Shown here in pieces: positions 16,541-44,871 of a stretch of 64,000 nt of DNA (the first letter of the stretch is position 1; the number at the start of each line of letters is the position of its first letter). The notes below the pieces were generated by a model. That model did no database searches. It was not told where the DNA came from and worked only from the letters and a program-made list of their open reading frames with translations. Both the position numbers and the translations under genes were made by a program. The stretch is from Nitzschia sp. pyKryTriq1 (Eukaryota > Bacillariophyta > Bacillariophyceae > Bacillariales > Bacillariaceae), in NCBI GenBank assembly GCA_956465555.1, contig OY101115.1:4502120-4566119 (forward strand), read 5' to 3'.

Positions 16541-18365
16541 TCACTCGGATACGATGGCAATCTGTTTCATCGCTTTCTTGGTTTTCGGCGCGGCCACGAA
16601 AAGGACACCGTTCTGAAGCGTGGCAGTGATATTGCTCGTGTCTACGGTATCGAGGTCCAATGCGAAGGATTTGGTCATGGTACGGGCAGAAACAGCATCG
16701 TCCGCATTGCGGGTTCCGGATACGATAAGCATGTGGCCGTCGAGCTGCACATCCACATCGCCCATGGTAACTCCTGGCATATCAATAGCAAGCTGGAATT
16801 TATCCTCGGTGCTCACGTCTTCAGCGTACGGTCCGCCAGTACCTTCGTCGAGACCAGCAAAATGTTTGACATTCGAGAGAATGTTGCGATTGAGCCAATC
16901 CACAACCATTTCCAGAAACTGGTCGTTCGCCGCGAAGACACACGTGATCGCAGCACCCCAAGCGGCGAAATAGCCATTTCCAGTTGTCGTCTGTACATAA
17001 TATACCATAGTAGTAGGATGAGTGATGAGCAAAAGTTTCGTGATACAATGTGAGATAATGAGAGTGGATATCAGTATGTATCGATATCCGTAGAATTTAC
17101 AGTACTTACAAAGGGTCCATCAAAGGTCATCAAAGTAGCTGCGGCCACCCACATGACCGCGAAACAGGTGATCACTGCGGATTTGATAGTCGCATCGAAA
17201 TCTCGCAAACGTTCCACAAAAATCAATGTCACAATGGACAAGATCAAGGAGTACATCATATTGACTTTGTAAGTCTTGTCATCCACTAATTCGGAGCTCA
17301 ACGCGATAATTACTGATGCGTAATGCAAGAACAAGAAAAGGGCAAGCAAGCAAGCAAGCAAACAACAGCCGAACTTAGATTCAGTAATTCATTCATATCG
17401 TCATGACGTGTGACAATATCAAGAGTTGAGTCGCCCAGTCGAAAAAAGAACAAAGCACAACTTACAAACGATCGAAAACAATCCCAAACCCAGCAGCGAT
17501 GTTCCGTCGTAAGCCGATTCTTTCATATGCTTGGCAGTGATGCCCTAATTTAAATGAGTATCATGGACGCAGCAGCACAACAGATGCAAATGAGGCGATG
17601 CTCTTCGTTGAACATTGTTTTTCAAGCATAGGATTGAGAATCAATGACGACTTACCATCGTTTGGACACTGAACAAGGCCATCCCCCAAGACGAAAAATA
17701 ACCGTTTCCTGTCTCGACCTGGGATATTGTAATACCAACAACAATAATGATATCATGGTGAGTGACGTCCTCCAAGAAGCCCAACAGATCGTACACCAAC
17801 CACATAACGACAGAGTACTCACAAACGGTCCTCGCCCAAACGTCAAAACTCCGGCAGCGATGAAACTCCAGAGAAAACAAAGGGCGGATATCCATTTGGA
17901 CAGGGAGCCTTGATCCCAGGTAGTTTTCCAACTGAGTAGGAGTCCAACCGACGAAAGAACCATGCCGACCGGCCCTACCGAAACCGCATACTCGTAGTAG
18001 CGATGTGTTGGATCGACAGAAAGACAGGCGGCCATCACATTGACCATGCTAGAAAGGAGCATTCCGAGCATGGGGACTTGCTTTTCGGAAATGTCAATCG
18101 CCACGCCTGCAATCTTCAATTTGACGTCCCCTTCTTCGCCAGTAGTACTAGCTCGTCGGGGGGGAGGCCCAGACCGCCCTCCGATTGATTGCGGTAAGGA
18201 CGAGGCGGAGGTGGTGTAGGGAGCAGGGCTCTCAGCAGCGATTTCTACATCTCCAGTAATGTCGGGCTTGGAAACTGATGGTGTGGCTGCCATAGTTGGA
18301 GCGCCCTCAGGGATTTCTACATCTCCAGTAATGGCGGGCTTGGAAACAGATGATTCGTCTGCCAT
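16541..18365 (-). CDS. Eight-segment membrane protein fused to a C-terminal Hsp20/alpha-crystallin domain, five exons
   Basis: Exons 18365-17823, 17718-17656, 17544-17466, 17312-17110 and 16990-16541 keep frame throughout (introns 104, 111, 153 and 119 bp, all GT-AG) and give 445 residues. The N-terminal 80 residues are polar with two near-identical SKPxITGDVEI units. Then come eight hydrophobic segments in two blocks of four; each block contains the motif F(G/D)..GPF|xxTGNGYFxxWG. Residues about 354-445 are a small heat shock domain: FQLAIDMPGVTMGDVDVQL, LIVSGTRN, the signature TLQNGVLFVAAPK, and an IxI/V-like end QIAIVSE. The last membrane segments and the Hsp20 domain lie in the same exon, so the fusion does not depend on a splice prediction. 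Known Hsp20 proteins hold unfolded clients; here the domain would be tethered to a membrane. Localisation and role are unknown. Confidence 0.85.
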
Positions 18366-18695: not shown

Positions 18696-19532
18696 GGAAC
18701 GGTTGACAAACTCACAAAAACGGAATCAGTCACGTCTGTCCGTCGCGCACGTTTCTTCATTGTGGGCATATATATAATTTGATACGACATCATCAGGACA
18801 CACGACGGATTGCAAGCAGTGCGAGGTCTGTCATCCGTCACGAATACATCGCGACGCGTCGCAACGCGTCGCGACGCGTCGCGACGCGCCACGACGCGTC
18901 GCGACGCGTCGCCACCGTACGACTATGTACTACAGTATGCAAAGGTCGAATACCGGTACCAGAATACCGGTACTCCTGTACCGGTACGAACAGTACCCGT
19001 GAGCAAGCCAGCCCTCCATCCACAGTCAGTGCTACAGTATTCGAAGCAGATGTCTTCTCCTCCCTCCACAGACTGGTGCCCTATGCAGAACAATCGGTGG
19101 TGAGGAACAAACTGATGTTCTTTGACTGCTGATTCTTTCTACAACAGTATCTTTCTCTACTACTACTACTACTACTACTGCCTCTCTAGAGTCTGCAGTA
19201 TGGATTAGTCATCTGCTTTTGTAGTATGCTTTACTAGTACTACGATGATACAGTACTAATAGTCCTCGTCCATCGTACCGGTATCGCTTGCCTCGACGTG
19301 TCGCGACGCGTCGTGGCGCGTCGTGGCGCGTCGCAACGCGTCGCTCGCGACGCGTCGCGATGTATTCGCGACGCGTCACAAACCTCGTGACGGACGATAG
19401 ACCTCGCATTGCGTGCAATCCGTCGTGTGTCCTGATGATGTCGTATATGACTATATATATGCCAATAATGAAGAAACGTGCGCGACGGACAGACGTGACA
19501 GATTCCGTTTTTGTGAGTTTGTGAACCGTTCC
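18696..19532. mobile_element. 837-bp inverted-repeat element with internal ACGCGT arrays
   Basis: The ends are ggaacggttgacaaactcac and gtgagtttgtgaaccgttcc. The arms run inward for about 215 bp with moderate divergence: both carry the acgtctgtccgtcgcgcacg block, a ttcttcattgtgggcatata block and a catcaggacacacgacggattg block. Each arm then enters a tandem array of cgacgcgtcg units (18842-18915 and 19295-19378). The central loop has a (CTA)n run at about 19155-19178. There is no coding frame and no obvious target duplication. This is a MITE or foldback of unknown superfamily. Confidence 0.65.
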
Positions 19533-20409: not shown

Positions 20410-20913
20410 CATATCGTATGCTCAATCATGGTTCAAGAGACATTTGTAAAGTGTTAGATCTCATCACACCCAAGGTTGTCAACGATCGCAATAGACATTG
20501 TAAGACCTTTTTAGATTCCACGATCGCTGTCAATCATGTGTGTTCGCCTGGGAGTGAATCGTCCTTGATCGAATCACCAGTGTCTGTCCTTCGCTCGGTG
20601 TTAGACTCTTCCGATCGAAGTCCCTCTTCAACACGTATACACATCCACTGCACCACACTGTTCCGTCCCTAGTAGTAGGCGTTTGCAACAATCTCACAAA
20701 ACATCTCCCCCGCGTGCGCCATCGCACACAACATATTCATAGCATCAGGAACCCGCGCATCCCGCATCCCACATCCCGCATCACGAATCAACGACTAAAA
20801 ACAAAAATAATAAAGAAGCCAAACGCCACAAGACGGAACATACAAATAAAGTCAAAAGTTAGTGACGACAGCTTCCTGCTTCCTGCAATAACTCACGATA
20901 GCACGAAGAATTG
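20410..20913. other. Intergenic region upstream of the hydrolase gene
   Basis: Contains short tandem-like strings (catcccgcatcccacatcccgcatc near 20758-20784) and an A-rich stretch at 20797-20820. It is the probable promoter of the hydrolase. No gene is supported. Confidence 0.35.
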
Positions 20914-21939
20914 ATGAGTGCTTGTGAAAGTTGCCTATCGAGTCTGGGGTGTTGCGGCAAAGCAACGCCTTGCGCCAAATGCTCCAAATTGTTATGTTCC
21001 ACTTGCGCTGGAACCAACGCCTTGATCCCTTTCGACCAAGCAAACGCCGAACTTTCCAATGATTTGACAAATAACAGTACTATTGAGTCCTACTGCAAAG
21101 AGTGCTATCACGAAGTTTCTATATTGGACTATTCCAAAGCTTACGATGACTTTGGAGGCGCTGCAGATGAGAGCGCTCCTACCATCACCTTTCTTATGGT
21201 TCATGGTGGTGGAGGCTCTCGGGCGATGTTTCGCCCTCATGCTCAAGAGCTTGTCAAAAGAGGATATCGCTGCGTCTTGATGGATTTACCTGGACACGGG
21301 ACTCTTGTCGACTCACCCTTGACTTTGGACTCTTGCGTCGAAGCGACAGCCAAGGTCTACAAAGCGTGTGGGTTGGCCCCAGAAACAACTGTGTACGTCG
21401 GCGCTTCTCTGGGTGCCTACATTGGTTTCTACATCTTGGACAAACTCCCCAAAAAGAGCTTTTGTGGTGCCATTCTGATGGATTGTGGCCAAAACGTGGG
21501 GCCAGATTGTAGTCTCAAGGCACGGGTGGGGATTTGGTTTCTCAAGATGGCAGCTGGAAATATGTCAAACAAAGCATTAATGGGCGCCATGCTCGGCGTG
21601 ACTAAAAAGTCTCCCGCCAAGTACAAGCTTGTCGAGTCCGTTTTTGGAGCAGGAATGCATTTTCAACAAGGAGTCGAACAAACTATCTGTATGCACACTG
21701 TTGCCCCGGCGGACTACATCCCTAACTACGAGTTCCCTGTCCTCTTTTTCAACGGAACTGAAGACTATCGCGATAGCGAAAACAAGTGGCTGTCATTGTG
21801 TAAGGACCAGAAGCGATCCGCGCTCAAAGTTTATGAGGGTGGCGATCACTTCTTTACTCACGACGAAAAGTTCGTGGACGATCTGCTCGATCGAATGGAC
21901 TCATTTGCGAAACAAGTTGCAAGCCTCAACAAGAAATAA
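20914..21939 (+). CDS. Alpha/beta hydrolase with an N-terminal FYVE-like zinc finger
   Basis: Single exon, 341 residues from the ATG at 20914. Residues 4-65 contain four CxxC pairs (C4/C7, C20/C23, C28/C31, C62/C65), the spacing of FYVE/FYVE-related fingers, but without the RRHHCR lipid-binding motif. Residues about 90-335 are an alpha/beta hydrolase: oxyanion loop HGGGGSRAMF, MDLPGHG, nucleophile elbow VGASLGA (Ser), acid in FFNGTEDYRD and the catalytic His in GGDHFF. The full triad is therefore plausible. A lipase, esterase or other small-ester hydrolase role is possible; substrate cannot be told. The finger could recruit the enzyme to an endomembrane (inference). Its stop lies 46 bp from the stop of the convergent REV1-like gene. 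Confidence 0.85.
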   Translation: MSACESCLSSLGCCGKATPCAKCSKLLCSTCAGTNALIPFDQANAELSNDLTNNSTIESYCKECYHEVSILDYSKAYDDFGGAADESAPTITFLMVHGGGGSRAMFRPHAQELVKRGYRCVLMDLPGHGTLVDSPLTLDSCVEATAKVYKACGLAPETTVYVGASLGAYIGFYILDKLPKKSFCGAILMDCGQNVGPDCSLKARVGIWFLKMAAGNMSNKALMGAMLGVTKKSPAKYKLVESVFGAGMHFQQGVEQTICMHTVAPADYIPNYEFPVLFFNGTEDYRDSENKWLSLCKDQKRSALKVYEGGDHFFTHDEKFVDDLLDRMDSFAKQVASLNKK

Positions 21940-39395: not shown

Positions 39396-42300
39396 TTAAC
39401 ATGCATACAGGTCGGAGAGCTCCCTCAATTGCTCCGCCAGGTGTTCTTGTACTTCATTCACGTCGCCTGTTGTCGTTACTTCACTGATGGTGGTATCACA
39501 GGAATACTGGGGCGCGATCTTTCTCACGGAACCATCCATTTGAATCTGAGCCTGGTGTGTGCCCATCTCATCCCTGCAGTGGACTTCAACAAAGTGATCC
39601 TTGTTAGAAGTCGAGAAGGAATGCTGAGAGTGAGAAGAGCCGGTAGAAATGTGCGTGGAGTGGGTGGCATGGCTATTGTTTTCACCCGAGTCTTGTTTTT
39701 CAAGAACGAGTTTGGCAGGACAATCCTTGGTAGTCTTGGTGGGATCATTCTCTGCTAGGTGGTAGTCGTCTGTGGGTGCAGGCGAAACATCATCCTCTTC
39801 TCGCTCGGTCAGCGTAGGATCGTCCTCTTCGCGTTCTGTGACCGGTTCCAAGGATACTTCGTCGGTTGGCATCATGGGAGGAGGAACGGGTCCTTCGACT
39901 AGGTTGTCGTCGCCAACCCAATAGGTCTTCATCTTGCCCTTTCCCTTGACATTGATCATTCCTCGCAACTTCAAAGGAATGTCAGGTGCTTGCTGAATTA
40001 GCAACTGGGCAGTGGAAAACGAACAATGGACTTTGCCGGGCATGGAATTGGATTCCATTCGAGACGCCGTATTGACAGTGTCACCAAACAGACCGTAGCG
40101 AGGATTCAAGGATCCAATAACGTTCGAGACCACTGGACCAGAGTTGATACCGACGCGAATCTGGACGCACCCCAAAGAGGGATCGTCCTCATCGATCAAT
40201 ATTTTGGAGGCAGCTCGAATGGCGTCTTGGGCATACTCGGCGCATTGCTTGGCGTGCGTTTCAAACTCGCTTCCATCAAGATTGGTCACACCCATGTAGG
40301 CATCTCCAATGGTTTCGACCTTGAAGATGTGGTACTTGTTGGCGAGGTTGTCAAACGCTTGGTACAAGCGATCCAGCATCGTCGAAACCTTCATGGGCGA
40401 GAATTTCTGAGAGATTGTGGTGAAACCAACAATGTCGGAGAAGACAATGGTGACAGTCTCATGAGATTCCGCTTCGACCTTCTTGCCAGCATTAAGAGCG
40501 TCAGCAATGTGCTTGGGGAAGACATCATACAACGACGTCGGCTTTCTCTTCATATTCTTCGCGATAGCATCCTTGGCGGTTTCCAATGGCTCGGTATCCT
40601 TGGAGTTCATTTCCACGAGAACGTAATCCATATCCTTGGCTGTCGGGCGGAAAAAGGCGTTGGCGCTCCAGCACTTCTTCATGAGTTCGACCATCTTGGG
40701 GGGCATGCTTTCTGGAATATTTGGTCTCTTGTTGAGTCGAGGATGGCAGACCTTGGGAAGAATCTTGCGCGGGTCTTCGCCGTCAAAAGGACTTTGTCGG
40801 GCATAGATCTCATAGATGATCATGGCCAAGGAATAAATATCGCAAGCTTGAGTGTACTCGCTGCGACGACGCAAGTATTCTGGGGCCATGTAAAAGGGCG
40901 TACCCTGCAGGATGTTGCGTTGTTTGGCGGTCTTGAAGTGAGAGAAGCCAAAGTCGGCCACCTTGGCTCGGAAGCGCGAGTCGACAAGGATATTCTTCGC
41001 CTTGAGATCCCCATGGAGGATCGGTGGCTTGGAAGCGTGCAAGAACTGGATTCCTTGGACGATATCACGGATGACCTGCAGGATGATCTCTCCACCTGGA
41101 GTCATTGTCTCATTGTGAAGGAGATCATAGAGAGAACCATATTCCATGTATTCCATCACCAACATTGGATCAACCTTGTTCGAAACGACTGCTCCCATGA
41201 CGGTTGTGATACATGGGTGGCGGAGCCGTGACAGCATTCTCATTTCAACGACGAATTCATTCACTCGTCTTGAATGTGCATCAAAGCGCGCCCACATCGG
41301 GAGGCAGCGCAGAAGGACGCTCTGAGATTTCGTGACCGACGCCATCAGAGTTCCACTTCCATGGTCGGAAGCGGTAGCACTCTCAAGTATCTTCAAGATG
41401 TCATTATCCGAGTGGTGAGCCATAATCAAGCGTTCCCAGCTCCTGTTTGACGCGCTCATGCTGCCTCTCTTGTCCTGAGAAAACGATTGGGACTCAATGT
41501 CACCAGAATTTTCTCCAAACTTCACGTTCTTGCCTTTTTTCATGGCGCTCTTTTTTGATTCCTTCTTGGTGGTGGTTGTTGTTTTGGGAATCTCGGCACT
41601 GGCTCCCCCAACAACCTGTTCGGCACTGTCGGTGCTGAGTTGTCCCGAAGAAGTGAGGGACGTACTGCCCTTCCTGGCCACCACAGGAGGCAGCACGCGT
41701 TTGACGGCCACCTTGGTACCTCGGTACTGTCCCAGAATGACAACGCCAAAGCCACCTTGTCCAATAATCTCAGGAGGCTCATTGAAATGAAGCTCTTCTG
41801 CGTTGATGTGCCAGATAGAGTCGCTTTGTTGTTTCTTGTATCCCAGGTAAACGAAAACGAGAACTCCGAGGGCGATGAATACTGCGGAGAAAATGATGAG
41901 GAAGAAATAGGCGGACTCCAGACAGCTTCCGCCCAACTCGTACGTGTTCCCAGCACAAACACAGTTGCCTTCTTCATCGGGCACGCGATGGCTTCCGTGA
42001 CCGTATTCTGCTTCACAATCGTAGTCTCTCACGATCACGCGGATGGGCGACTGTGAGATTGGCTCCCCATCGACGATGATGTCAATAACTTGGACTTGAA
42101 CCGTTTTGTCTGTGACTGTGAATTCAAATCCATGCCCTTTCGACCCTGGAACTTCTGTCAGCTCCAAGGTCCTTCGCTGGTCTCCAGCATTGGCAACTAC
42201 TTCAATCTGGGCTCCATTCCTCACCAAGTTGTCGTAGATGCGAAGAGTGATACTTTCGCCCTGCTCGATGGTACCACAGATACTCATCTTTTCGCATCCA

Positions 42301-43742
42301 GGGAGAGAATCACCGTAGTACGTTTCGAGGTGAGGATCTTCTGTACCATCAATGTGATGGTAGACGTCAACTTCAAACGCCTCGACACAAGGCTTGCAGA
42401 AGCAGTCATACTCCTCATTGTCATTGCAGCTCAATCCGATCTCGCTGCACCCCGAATGGAACTCGTCTTCGTGCCTCTTGAAGTGTCCCTCGGGGCATGT
42501 GATACCCTCGTATAGATTTGTAGGGCGTGTACACGCCCAGTTGCCCTTGTGGTCTTGGACCAAGAAGCCAGCTTCTTGCTGCACGGATCGAAGTTCGAAA
42601 TACGAGCGTGCAGTACGAAAGCCCGAAATCTTGCTTATATGTGCAGCCGCTTCAGCGAGGTCAGCAAGGTAATTCGTCACCTCGCAAGCGGCATCTATAT
42701 CGAAATCTTGTGGGGACAAGCTGTCGCAGTACTCTGCCGTGTTGGTTTCGAGACAGATCGATCGAAGTTCGCCAACGTGGGCAAAATGGCTAAACGCAAG
42801 CAAAGCGTTTTGAACTTCTGCTTGAACGTCCCCTGGGACACTGGGAAGGGCCGCAAAGGGCCACTCGGGGAAAATGTCAGTCGAGTGGAGGAAGGGAAAG
42901 AGCTCGCCTGAATCCATGACATAGATCTTCGGTTCGATGATCTTGAACAGGTCAGGATCGACGAGATTACCTTCCTCGTCCCTTGTCAGCTCAATCTGAT
43001 CGGTTCGAATAAAACCAACATCGAATCGACCACTGATCAAACCCTGTACGACATCTTTTTGATCCTTGGTGAACACAACTTGCTTGGGGTCGTTGACATA
43101 GGACATGCCCGCCTTTTCCATCTCGTAGATCTGCATTTGACCTCCCATAAGATCAATGATGGCACCAGCTCCAATAACCTTGTCTTTGAGGTCAGCGATG
43201 GTGTTAATGTCGTCGTTGTCATGGCGAACAGCGATGACACCGCCATAAACGTCGAGATCGAAGGTACGACCTCGGGTCTCGAGCTCCTTGATGACAGTTG
43301 CCAAAGCGCTTGCGCCCACTTGAGTACCAATGCAGGAGTATACTCCGGGATTGGCGTAGAAAAAGTCCATTTCTTCATTTTCAATTGCGGTGAAAATCCC
43401 TTCAAAGAAGTAAGGGATCACATTGAATTCGATCGGAGGATCGAATTTCGTGCCGGCTGTTGCGGTTAGGTAGTCTCCTAAAGCCATCTCCACCTCCTCT
43501 AGGGCAGCATCCAAGCCACGAGTTGCATGAACTCCGATCGTGTAGGAAGCCTTGTGAATATATGGGTCGAATTTGATCTTTTCCGTTCCGCAGGAATCAG
43601 CTCCCGCACTATTGGTGACGAATGCTTGTTCGTCTACACCCTCTGGGATGATGGTTGAATTCTGGAGATTCGCCGCCAGTCCCAAAGTAGCAGCGCTTGG
43701 CAATACTGCGATGCCGAATAGCAAGTGGAATGAGAATGTCAT
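39396..43742 (-). CDS. Receptor guanylyl cyclase with PhnD-like sensor, Cys-rich stalk and protein kinase domain
   Basis: Single exon, 1448 residues. Signal peptide (1-23); a PhnD/phosphonate-type periplasmic-binding domain (about 58-330: YTIGVHATRG, DFFYANPGVYSCI, GGVIAVRHDND, LKDKVIGAG, GRFDVGFIRTD); a Cys-rich stalk (about 405-600); one membrane helix (about 611-634). The kinase (about 655-1040) has GQGGFGVV, VAVK, HGDLKAKN, ADFGF and APEYL, so all catalytic residues are present, unlike the pseudokinase of animal receptor cyclases; it carries a charged insert of about 110 residues after VAVK. The cyclase (about 1090-1275) has both metal aspartates (FSDIVGF, ETIGDAY), the guanine-type Glu in KVETIGD, and NPRYGLFGDTVNTASRME with the transition-state Asn and Arg. 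Gly replaces the usual Cys in RYCLFGD. An acidic/Ser-rich tail follows. Predicted output: cGMP upon ligand binding at the surface. The ligand is unknown. Confidence 0.9.
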   Translation of the reverse strand: MTFSFHLLFGIAVLPSAATLGLAANLQNSTIIPEGVDEQAFVTNSAGADSCGTEKIKFDPYIHKASYTIGVHATRGLDAALEEVEMALGDYLTATAGTKFDPPIEFNVIPYFFEGIFTAIENEEMDFFYANPGVYSCIGTQVGASALATVIKELETRGRTFDLDVYGGVIAVRHDNDDINTIADLKDKVIGAGAIIDLMGGQMQIYEMEKAGMSYVNDPKQVVFTKDQKDVVQGLISGRFDVGFIRTDQIELTRDEEGNLVDPDLFKIIEPKIYVMDSGELFPFLHSTDIFPEWPFAALPSVPGDVQAEVQNALLAFSHFAHVGELRSICLETNTAEYCDSLSPQDFDIDAACEVTNYLADLAEAAAHISKISGFRTARSYFELRSVQQEAGFLVQDHKGNWACTRPTNLYEGITCPEGHFKRHEDEFHSGCSEIGLSCNDNEEYDCFCKPCVEAFEVDVYHHIDGTEDPHLETYYGDSLPGCEKMSICGTIEQGESITLRIYDNLVRNGAQIEVVANAGDQRRTLELTEVPGSKGHGFEFTVTDKTVQVQVIDIIVDGEPISQSPIRVIVRDYDCEAEYGHGSHRVPDEEGNCVCAGNTYELGGSCLESAYFFLIIFSAVFIALGVLVFVYLGYKKQQSDSIWHINAEELHFNEPPEIIGQGGFGVVILGQYRGTKVAVKRVLPPVVARKGSTSLTSSGQLSTDSAEQVVGGASAEIPKTTTTTKKESKKSAMKKGKNVKFGENSGDIESQSFSQDKRGSMSASNRSWERLIMAHHSDNDILKILESATASDHGSGTLMASVTKSQSVLLRCLPMWARFDAHSRRVNEFVVEMRMLSRLRHPCITTVMGAVVSNKVDPMLVMEYMEYGSLYDLLHNETMTPGGEIILQVIRDIVQGIQFLHASKPPILHGDLKAKNILVDSRFRAKVADFGFSHFKTAKQRNILQGTPFYMAPEYLRRRSEYTQACDIYSLAMIIYEIYARQSPFDGEDPRKILPKVCHPRLNKRPNIPESMPPKMVELMKKCWSANAFFRPTAKDMDYVLVEMNSKDTEPLETAKDAIAKNMKRKPTSLYDVFPKHIADALNAGKKVEAESHETVTIVFSDIVGFTTISQKFSPMKVSTMLDRLYQAFDNLANKYHIFKVETIGDAYMGVTNLDGSEFETHAKQCAEYAQDAIRAASKILIDEDDPSLGCVQIRVGINSGPVVSNVIGSLNPRYGLFGDTVNTASRMESNSMPGKVHCSFSTAQLLIQQAPDIPLKLRGMINVKGKGKMKTYWVGDDNLVEGPVPPPMMPTDEVSLEPVTEREEDDPTLTEREEDDVSPAPTDDYHLAENDPTKTTKDCPAKLVLEKQDSGENNSHATHSTHISTGSSHSQHSFSTSNKDHFVEVHCRDEMGTHQAQIQMDGSVRKIAPQYSCDTTISEVTTTGDVNEVQEHLAEQLRELSDLYAC

Positions 43743-44871
43743 TGTCCTCGATTTAGGTTTGAATCTCGGAAGATGATGGCGATCCTTGATTGCTTTTTGG
43801 TTTGATTCTAATTTATTTTATGGCATCCATCGCTCGCTGTTGGGTGCTATCGGCTCTTCGTTAATCTGGTGTGGTTGATGCGATGCGGGATGCTGGGGAG
43901 ACGAGATTTTTGGTGGTCCTTTTCGAGTTCGCAATTACTCCAAAAATAGGCCCAAAACGGGTCGATAAATTCTTCAATAGCCCTTCTGCGTCACAATAAA
44001 TCTGAACCTAAATGTTGGTGCGGCCGGCGGCTTCGCGTTTTTCGAAAGGCAGCGCTATTAGACGAGTCTACCCATGGTTCCAATCAATTCCTCGGTGTTC
44101 GCTTATTGGCATGAGCTCGTGTTGTAGCTTGGTTGTAGCTGATGTTGAAGAGTAGATTGCTTAAGCCCGGTGGTCACATGACCCTCATCGTTAAATGAAT
44201 TGCATCGTTCTTTTGATTGCCTTCGTGTTCCATCCCACCGGACGGGCCCAAACACACACGTACTGTACGCAGCTGCACACCCACCCGCGTTATTGTTATT
44301 GTCTTCTTCTTCTCGCAACAACAAAATGCGAAGGAGGGAAGCCATAGCAGTGCCGGACCGACATGTTGAAATACTACTGCTACTACTACTACTACTACTA
44401 CTACTAGTATTAGTTGCTACTAGTAGTAATAGACTACTGAAACGGTACCGGCACACTTTTGGGGGGGCGAAACAGGAAACCGAAGACTGGCACGAGGGCG
44501 GGAAACCTTTGGCGCTTGCTGCTCAGAGGTTCAGAGCTAATATACGACGAACATAATGACTTCTACTTCTTCTTCTTCGACACACAACACACAGGGCTGA
44601 CGCGAAAAGGTGCCTCGTACGTATCCTTCTACTCGTGCGGGTCGCAATAAGCCGCCCCGATAGATGCAGAGCGATACTAGTGACTGGATACTACTTCGAT
44701 ACCGGTACGGTACTATCATACACACGAAGCTAACAATGGTACTACTAGTAGTAGGACGAAATTCAACTGACGACTCGTCGATCCTTCTACTACATAGTAC
44801 TACTACTAGCTGCTGCTGCTACTAGTAGACTAGTAGACTATAACAAAACTATCATTATTCTTCGGTTATTA
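43743..44871. other. Intergenic region with (CTA)n runs
   Basis: Promoter of the cyclase gene and 3' flank of the kinase gene. A (CTA)n microsatellite lies at about 44370-44406 and more TAC/TAG strings occur near 44740-44840. Short frames have no recognisable product. Confidence 0.45.

Follow-up and report, generated by a model that had tools for sequence, protein, structure and literature searches.

Can a small heat shock protein (sHsp) domain be built into a multi-pass membrane protein and, if so, what might it do there? The question is raised by a gene in a 64,000-nucleotide stretch of the diatom Nitzschia sp. pyKryTriq1 (contig OY101115.1, positions 4,502,120 to 4,566,119; hereafter 'the window'), for which an original prediction, made from the letters alone, proposed eight hydrophobic segments joined to a full alpha-crystallin domain (ACD, or Hsp20 domain) between positions 16541 and 18365. 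Those coordinates proved right: the gene lies on the minus strand and comprises five exons, whose 1338-nt coding sequence specifies 445 residues (47.3 kDa), with introns of 104, 111, 153 and 119 nt that all (4/4) have GT-AG borders. The fusion of a membrane module with an Hsp20 domain is real, and the gene is transcribed.

The transcript was found by searching a database of 5.8 billion proteins, with approximately 8000 candidates scored per search. One database protein, P0001, is identical to the window protein (100% across 445 residues); its contig of 1577 nt is shorter than the 1825 nt that the gene spans, introns included, and therefore corresponds to a spliced transcript, which is full-length rather than truncated. 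Its source tag, 'lgn', presumably denotes the Logan SRA assemblies. Four diverged fusions (P0002, P0003, P0004 and P0051) share 41-59% identity with the window protein from the sixth to the eighth transmembrane (TM) helix and over the Hsp20 domain; the longest contigs of P0003 and P0051 (53,145 and 28,669 nt) carry TM6 into the Hsp20 domain in one open frame, so that in these relatives the join is genomic. The earlier contention that the junction was 'not a splicing guess' was thus upheld by transcript and relatives alike, while its premise, that the last membrane segments share an exon with the Hsp20 domain, holds for TM8 (exon 5) but not for TM5-TM7, which are encoded by exons 3 and 4.

The whole gene is also intact on a second contig of the assembly (C3), with the same five exons and an unbroken frame, differing from the window copy by six synonymous and four non-synonymous codon changes (NG86 dN 0.0039, dS 0.0190). 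This copy could represent the second haplotype or have arisen by segmental duplication, and is weak as independent support. Nonetheless, the notion that separate membrane and sHsp genes were wrongly joined by the gene model or the assembly is extremely improbable: nothing in its favor was found beyond the a priori oddity of the join, and it is contradicted by the exon model, the identical spliced transcript, the second intact copy and the diverged fusions P0002-P0004 and P0051, of which P0003 and P0051 have the join on contigs of 53 and 29 kb. A gene-prediction artefact was rejected on these grounds. A retrocopy was also discarded as a source of intronless sequence, none of 14 own-genome matches (the best candidates scored) being intronless.

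The Hsp20 domain and the membrane module

The profile search proposed as a check on the Hsp20 domain returned a clear match rather than none: PF00011 aligns with residues 355-439 at 52.3 bits (E 6.7e-14) against a curated cut-off of 20.8, and the same domain scored 56.1 bits in a six-frame search. When the whole predicted structure was compared with other structures using Foldseek, the best 50 of 665 matches were all sHsps or crystallins. Conserved sHsp motifs include A-x-x-x-n-G-V-L and a C-terminal I-x-I/V; the predicted signature TLQNGVLFVAAPK and the I-x-I/V-like tail are both present in the window protein, where these motifs read ATLQNGVL and IAI, and GVL and I-x-I/V are retained in all five fusions. 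The distance from the G.R motif that follows strand beta-5 to GVL is 36-40 in 5/5 fusions and in six of eight other sHsps of this genome (one has 49 and one was not measured), and 45-53 in five of nine Hsp20-only database proteins (three were not measured, and one was misread as 25). Membrane proteins that carry the p23/CS domain are also known, HACD3 being an example by its architecture; Pfam gave no CS-domain match in the fusion protein. As the monomers of sHsps range from 12 to 43 kDa, and the window protein exceeds that range owing to its membrane module, it is to be regarded as a membrane protein that carries an sHsp domain and not as a typical sHsp.

All eight membrane segments appear as helices in an AlphaFold2 model (pLDDT 79.9, pTM 0.59), but a Kyte-Doolittle scan above 1.3 resolves only six separate peaks, the TM4 and TM8 segments falling below that value. 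The earlier description, in which several membrane passes are combined with a complete ACD, is supported. The module consists of two four-TM repeats, each bearing the motif TF.GPF..TGNGYF..W, and belongs to an algal family that has no Pfam model and whose members mostly lack an Hsp20 domain. Introns 1 and 4 are both in phase 0 and fall directly after the GPF of each motif copy (ahead of VETGNGYFSSW and TTTGNGYFAAW, respectively), an arrangement suggestive of a duplication of the four-TM unit along with its intron. Two relatives, P0045 and P0122 (587 and 717 residues), have approximately four motif copies, and in them the unit has thus been multiplied further.

The predicted fold of the module resembles that of synaptogyrin, a likeness that is suggestive only. 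Synaptogyrin and synaptophysin are MARVEL tetraspans, four-TM bundles with both termini in the cytosol. The charge distribution of the fusion protein points to cytosolic N- and C-termini. When the module was searched alone, none of 295 Foldseek matches reached E <= 0.001; the MARVEL profile PF01284 is absent from the Pfam matches of the fusion protein at E <= 1, and when 22 membrane-only members were examined it matched one, weakly (best E 0.099). A comparison of the whole model with predicted viral structures placed a 159-residue 'Transmembrane protein' of Tetraselmis virus 1 in sixth position, at 25% identity and a TMt of 0.59; in IMG/VR, 88 and 39 pattern matches to the membrane family or the fusion yielded no confirmed relative.

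Table 1. Positions of the gene and of its encoded features in the window
Feature	Position	Strand	Description
Gene	16541-18365	minus	start codon at 18365, stop ends at 16541
Exon 1	17823-18365	minus	aa 1-74 low-confidence N-terminus, short beta hairpin 81-92, TM1-TM3, ends GRGPF (aa 181)
Exon 2	17656-17718	minus	repeat 1 motif VETGNGYFSSW and TM4
Exon 3	17466-17544	minus	loop 4-5, then start of TM5 (start of repeat 2)
Exon 4	17110-17312	minus	remainder of TM5, TM6, TM7, ends FDGPF (aa 296)
Exon 5	16541-16990	minus	repeat 2 motif TTTGNGYFAAW, TM8, linker helix, Hsp20 domain, stop
TM8	16925-16978	minus	~aa 301-318 of model helix 301-340; border to linker helix set by eye
Linker helix	16859-16924	minus	~aa 319-340, continuous with TM8 in model
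Alpha-crystallin (Hsp20) domain	16562-16816	minus	aa 355-439, PF00011
I-A-I tail motif	16553-16561	minus	aa 440-442
Membrane helices (AlphaFold2 model)			aa 96-116, 124-147, 154-175, 186-201, 206-239, 244-266, 269-293, 301-340

Relatives and origin of the fusion

The matches listed comprised 128 distinct proteins, of which 14 carry PF00011, one (P0086) carries PF00397 and 113 have no Pfam label. The 14 consist of at least five fusions (P0001-P0004 and P0051), a number that is a lower bound, and nine Hsp20-only proteins. P0086 (410 residues) is a relative of the membrane module in which PF00397, which we take to be the WW domain, takes the place of PF00011; the module has thus also been joined to another cytosolic domain. 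All of the named relatives are membrane-only proteins of diatoms (Skeletonema, Thalassiosira and Attheya).

In a tree of TM6-TM8 (58 rows and 88 columns, which the program considered few), all five fusions fall into a single clade (support 100/99) that adjoins the membrane-only protein P0052 (96/80). A tree of the Hsp20 domain, built from 22 rows (the five fusions, the eight other sHsps of this genome and the nine Hsp20-only proteins), also groups the fusions in one clade, with support (92/88) below the line of 95 and with long branches on several rows. Since both halves each form a single clade, the trees are consistent with a single fusion event, which would be the simplest reading.

Within the genome itself, PF00011 has 11 matches, two of which are the copies of the fusion gene on C3 and on C1, the contig of the window. 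For each of the other nine, the open frame in which the ACD lies was scanned for hydropathy, and the peaks range over 0.43-1.41; the value of 1.98 for the fusion gene in the same table derives from intron sequence and was not used. The highest peak, which exceeds 1.3, belongs to a gene on contig C7, where it lies at residue 53 of a 424-residue stop-to-stop frame, a long way before the ACD and possibly in non-coding sequence. A membrane-only paralogue on C17, a contig on which PF00011 has no match, ends soon after its last TGNGYF motif, and a remote paralogue of the membrane family is found on C15.

Proposed function at the membrane

Several known systems provide points of comparison. The chloroplast protein Hsp21 is a soluble sHsp, the anchor of Arabidopsis RTM2 is C-terminal and, to our knowledge, none of HSP17, Lo18 and HSPB1 has transmembrane segments. 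The earlier statement that sHsps are normally soluble nevertheless requires a caveat, because passages of one article describe Arabidopsis RTM2 and SLI1 as hsp20-like proteins with a predicted transmembrane domain and specialised roles (PMC7077274), and passages of another describe Tom36 and Tom46 of Trichomonas and ATOM69 of trypanosomes as import receptors in which Hsp20, TPR and transmembrane domains are combined, the cytosolic parts of Tom36 and Tom46 binding preproteins (PMC6334971). The fusion protein resembles RTM2 and SLI1 in that its Hsp20-like domain is fixed to the membrane by the same polypeptide, but differs in having a tandem four-TM module, of its own family and N-terminal to the domain. 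It shares a tethered Hsp20-like domain with the import receptors as well, whereas those, as described there, have an N-terminal Hsp20-like domain, TPR-like domains and a single C-terminal anchor; Pfam gave no TPR match in the fusion protein. Work at membranes is also attributed, in passages of a third article, to Synechocystis HSP17 (called amphitropic), Oenococcus Lo18 and HSPB1, where soluble sHsps are said to bind membranes and thereby protect them (PMC12564747). Among proteins of solved structure, Hsp21 comes closest to the ACD in sequence (E 3e-10), and differs in forming a dodecamer, according to the title of structure 5nms. Thus, single-TM Hsp20-like proteins are already known, and the fusion protein is a variant on them with a polytopic anchor; in the open-licence PMC literature on membrane and diatom Hsp20 proteins, in the parts available and in a search not aimed at the membrane family, no polytopic membrane protein fused to Hsp20 was described.

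We propose, with a probability of roughly one half, that the tethered domain serves as a holdase or as a recruiter or docking site at the cytosolic surface of a membrane. In such an arrangement TM8 would run on as a helix, a flexible linker would hold the Hsp20 domain beside the cytosolic surface of one membrane, and the anchored domain would act without ATP, binding unfolding clients at that membrane or providing a docking site. The I-x-I tail and the beta4/beta8 groove, which participate in assembly of sHsps generally, could mediate self-assembly or the recruitment of soluble sHsps, and the membrane module (MARVEL-like by fold, though unproven) might select the membrane domain. Putative holdase action at the membrane is plausible; it is a more doubtful extension that diatom-type algae possess a dedicated class of membrane-integral sHsps, in which a tandem MARVEL-like tetraspan would sort the holdase to certain membrane domains and couple membrane state to client capture. 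A role in sensing lipid stress, also raised in the original prediction, is unsupported, with evidence in neither direction.

A number of observations weigh against the proposed holdase or docking role. Pattern scans for a heat-shock element with at most one mismatch found none between 12697 and 21106, and heat induction is therefore not suggested; the scans returned 24 matches where approximately 23 were expected, and the two constitute one test, their patterns being reverse complements of each other. The beta-6 strand, through which plant and bacterial sHsps form their strand-swapped dimers, is absent from the AlphaFold2 model of the Hsp20 domain, so that assembly through such a dimer would be unlikely; metazoan-type sHsp dimers do without this strand. 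The linker helix is weakly amphipathic in three of the five fusions and not in the other two, only the TM6-TM8 half of the module was seen in the four fusions other than P0001, and P0001 alone has no K or R in loop 2-3 within the borders used. Finally, the fusion is not among the matches from diatom transcriptomes (mmetsp and eukprot), in which membrane-only members occur, and it may therefore be rare or patchy in distribution.

Some of these same observations would accord with a role for the ACD as a fixed protein-protein interaction module that brings one partner to the membrane (for instance a soluble sHsp, Hsp90 or a precursor protein), much as has been proposed for the Hsp20-like domains of membrane receptors. 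The lack of an upstream heat-shock element and of beta-6 in the model favor such a role, as do the specialised roles of membrane-tethered Hsp20-like proteins in the published passages (PMC7077274, PMC6334971); yet the I-x-I/V tail and the GVL motif are kept in 5/5 fusions and the ACD scores far above the PF00011 cut-off, and we regard this alternative as rather unlikely. Action of the ACD in cis, by folding back onto its own membrane module or the neighbouring oligomer or by stabilising them, possibly as a sensor of stress or lipid state, appears more improbable still: the continuous TM8-linker helix of the model could transmit a conformational change, but the stretch between helix and ACD (by alignment count, 7 residues in P0001, 46 in P0002, 25 in P0003, 56 in P0004 and 45 in P0051) varies from 7 to 56 residues, which counts against rigid coupling. 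A polytopic anchor for an sHsp domain would be well suited to testing whether a holdase is of benefit simply by acting at a membrane surface. It would also open a way into the algal family of membrane proteins with the motif TF.GPF..TGNGYF..W, for which Pfam has no model.

Genomic surroundings

Positions 1-32016 of the window align piecewise to a 30-kb piece of C3, and probes further out on C1 match C3 in the same order across approximately 160 kb. The whole window (1-64000; C1:4502120-4566119) looks colinear with approximately 3.36-3.42 Mb of C3, within that block, which may be a haplotype that was retained or a segmental duplication. About 330 bp upstream of the start of the fusion gene sits a foldback element (18696-19532), with 148-nt arms that are 92% complementary and CGCGACGCGT-type repeats; the corresponding region of C3 lacks roughly 18885-19320. 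No RNA family was found in the window at the gathering threshold. Close to the fusion gene is an open frame for an alpha/beta hydrolase (20902-21936, plus strand). Further away, at 39399-43817 on the minus strand, a 1473-residue open frame combines a phosphonate-binding domain (PF12974) with protein kinase and guanylate cyclase domains, and by its predicted domains is a guanylyl cyclase of the receptor type whose ectodomain is unusual; a 2-kb probe taken within this frame (40000-42000) also has matches elsewhere on C1, on C3 and on C15, with identities of 75-100%.
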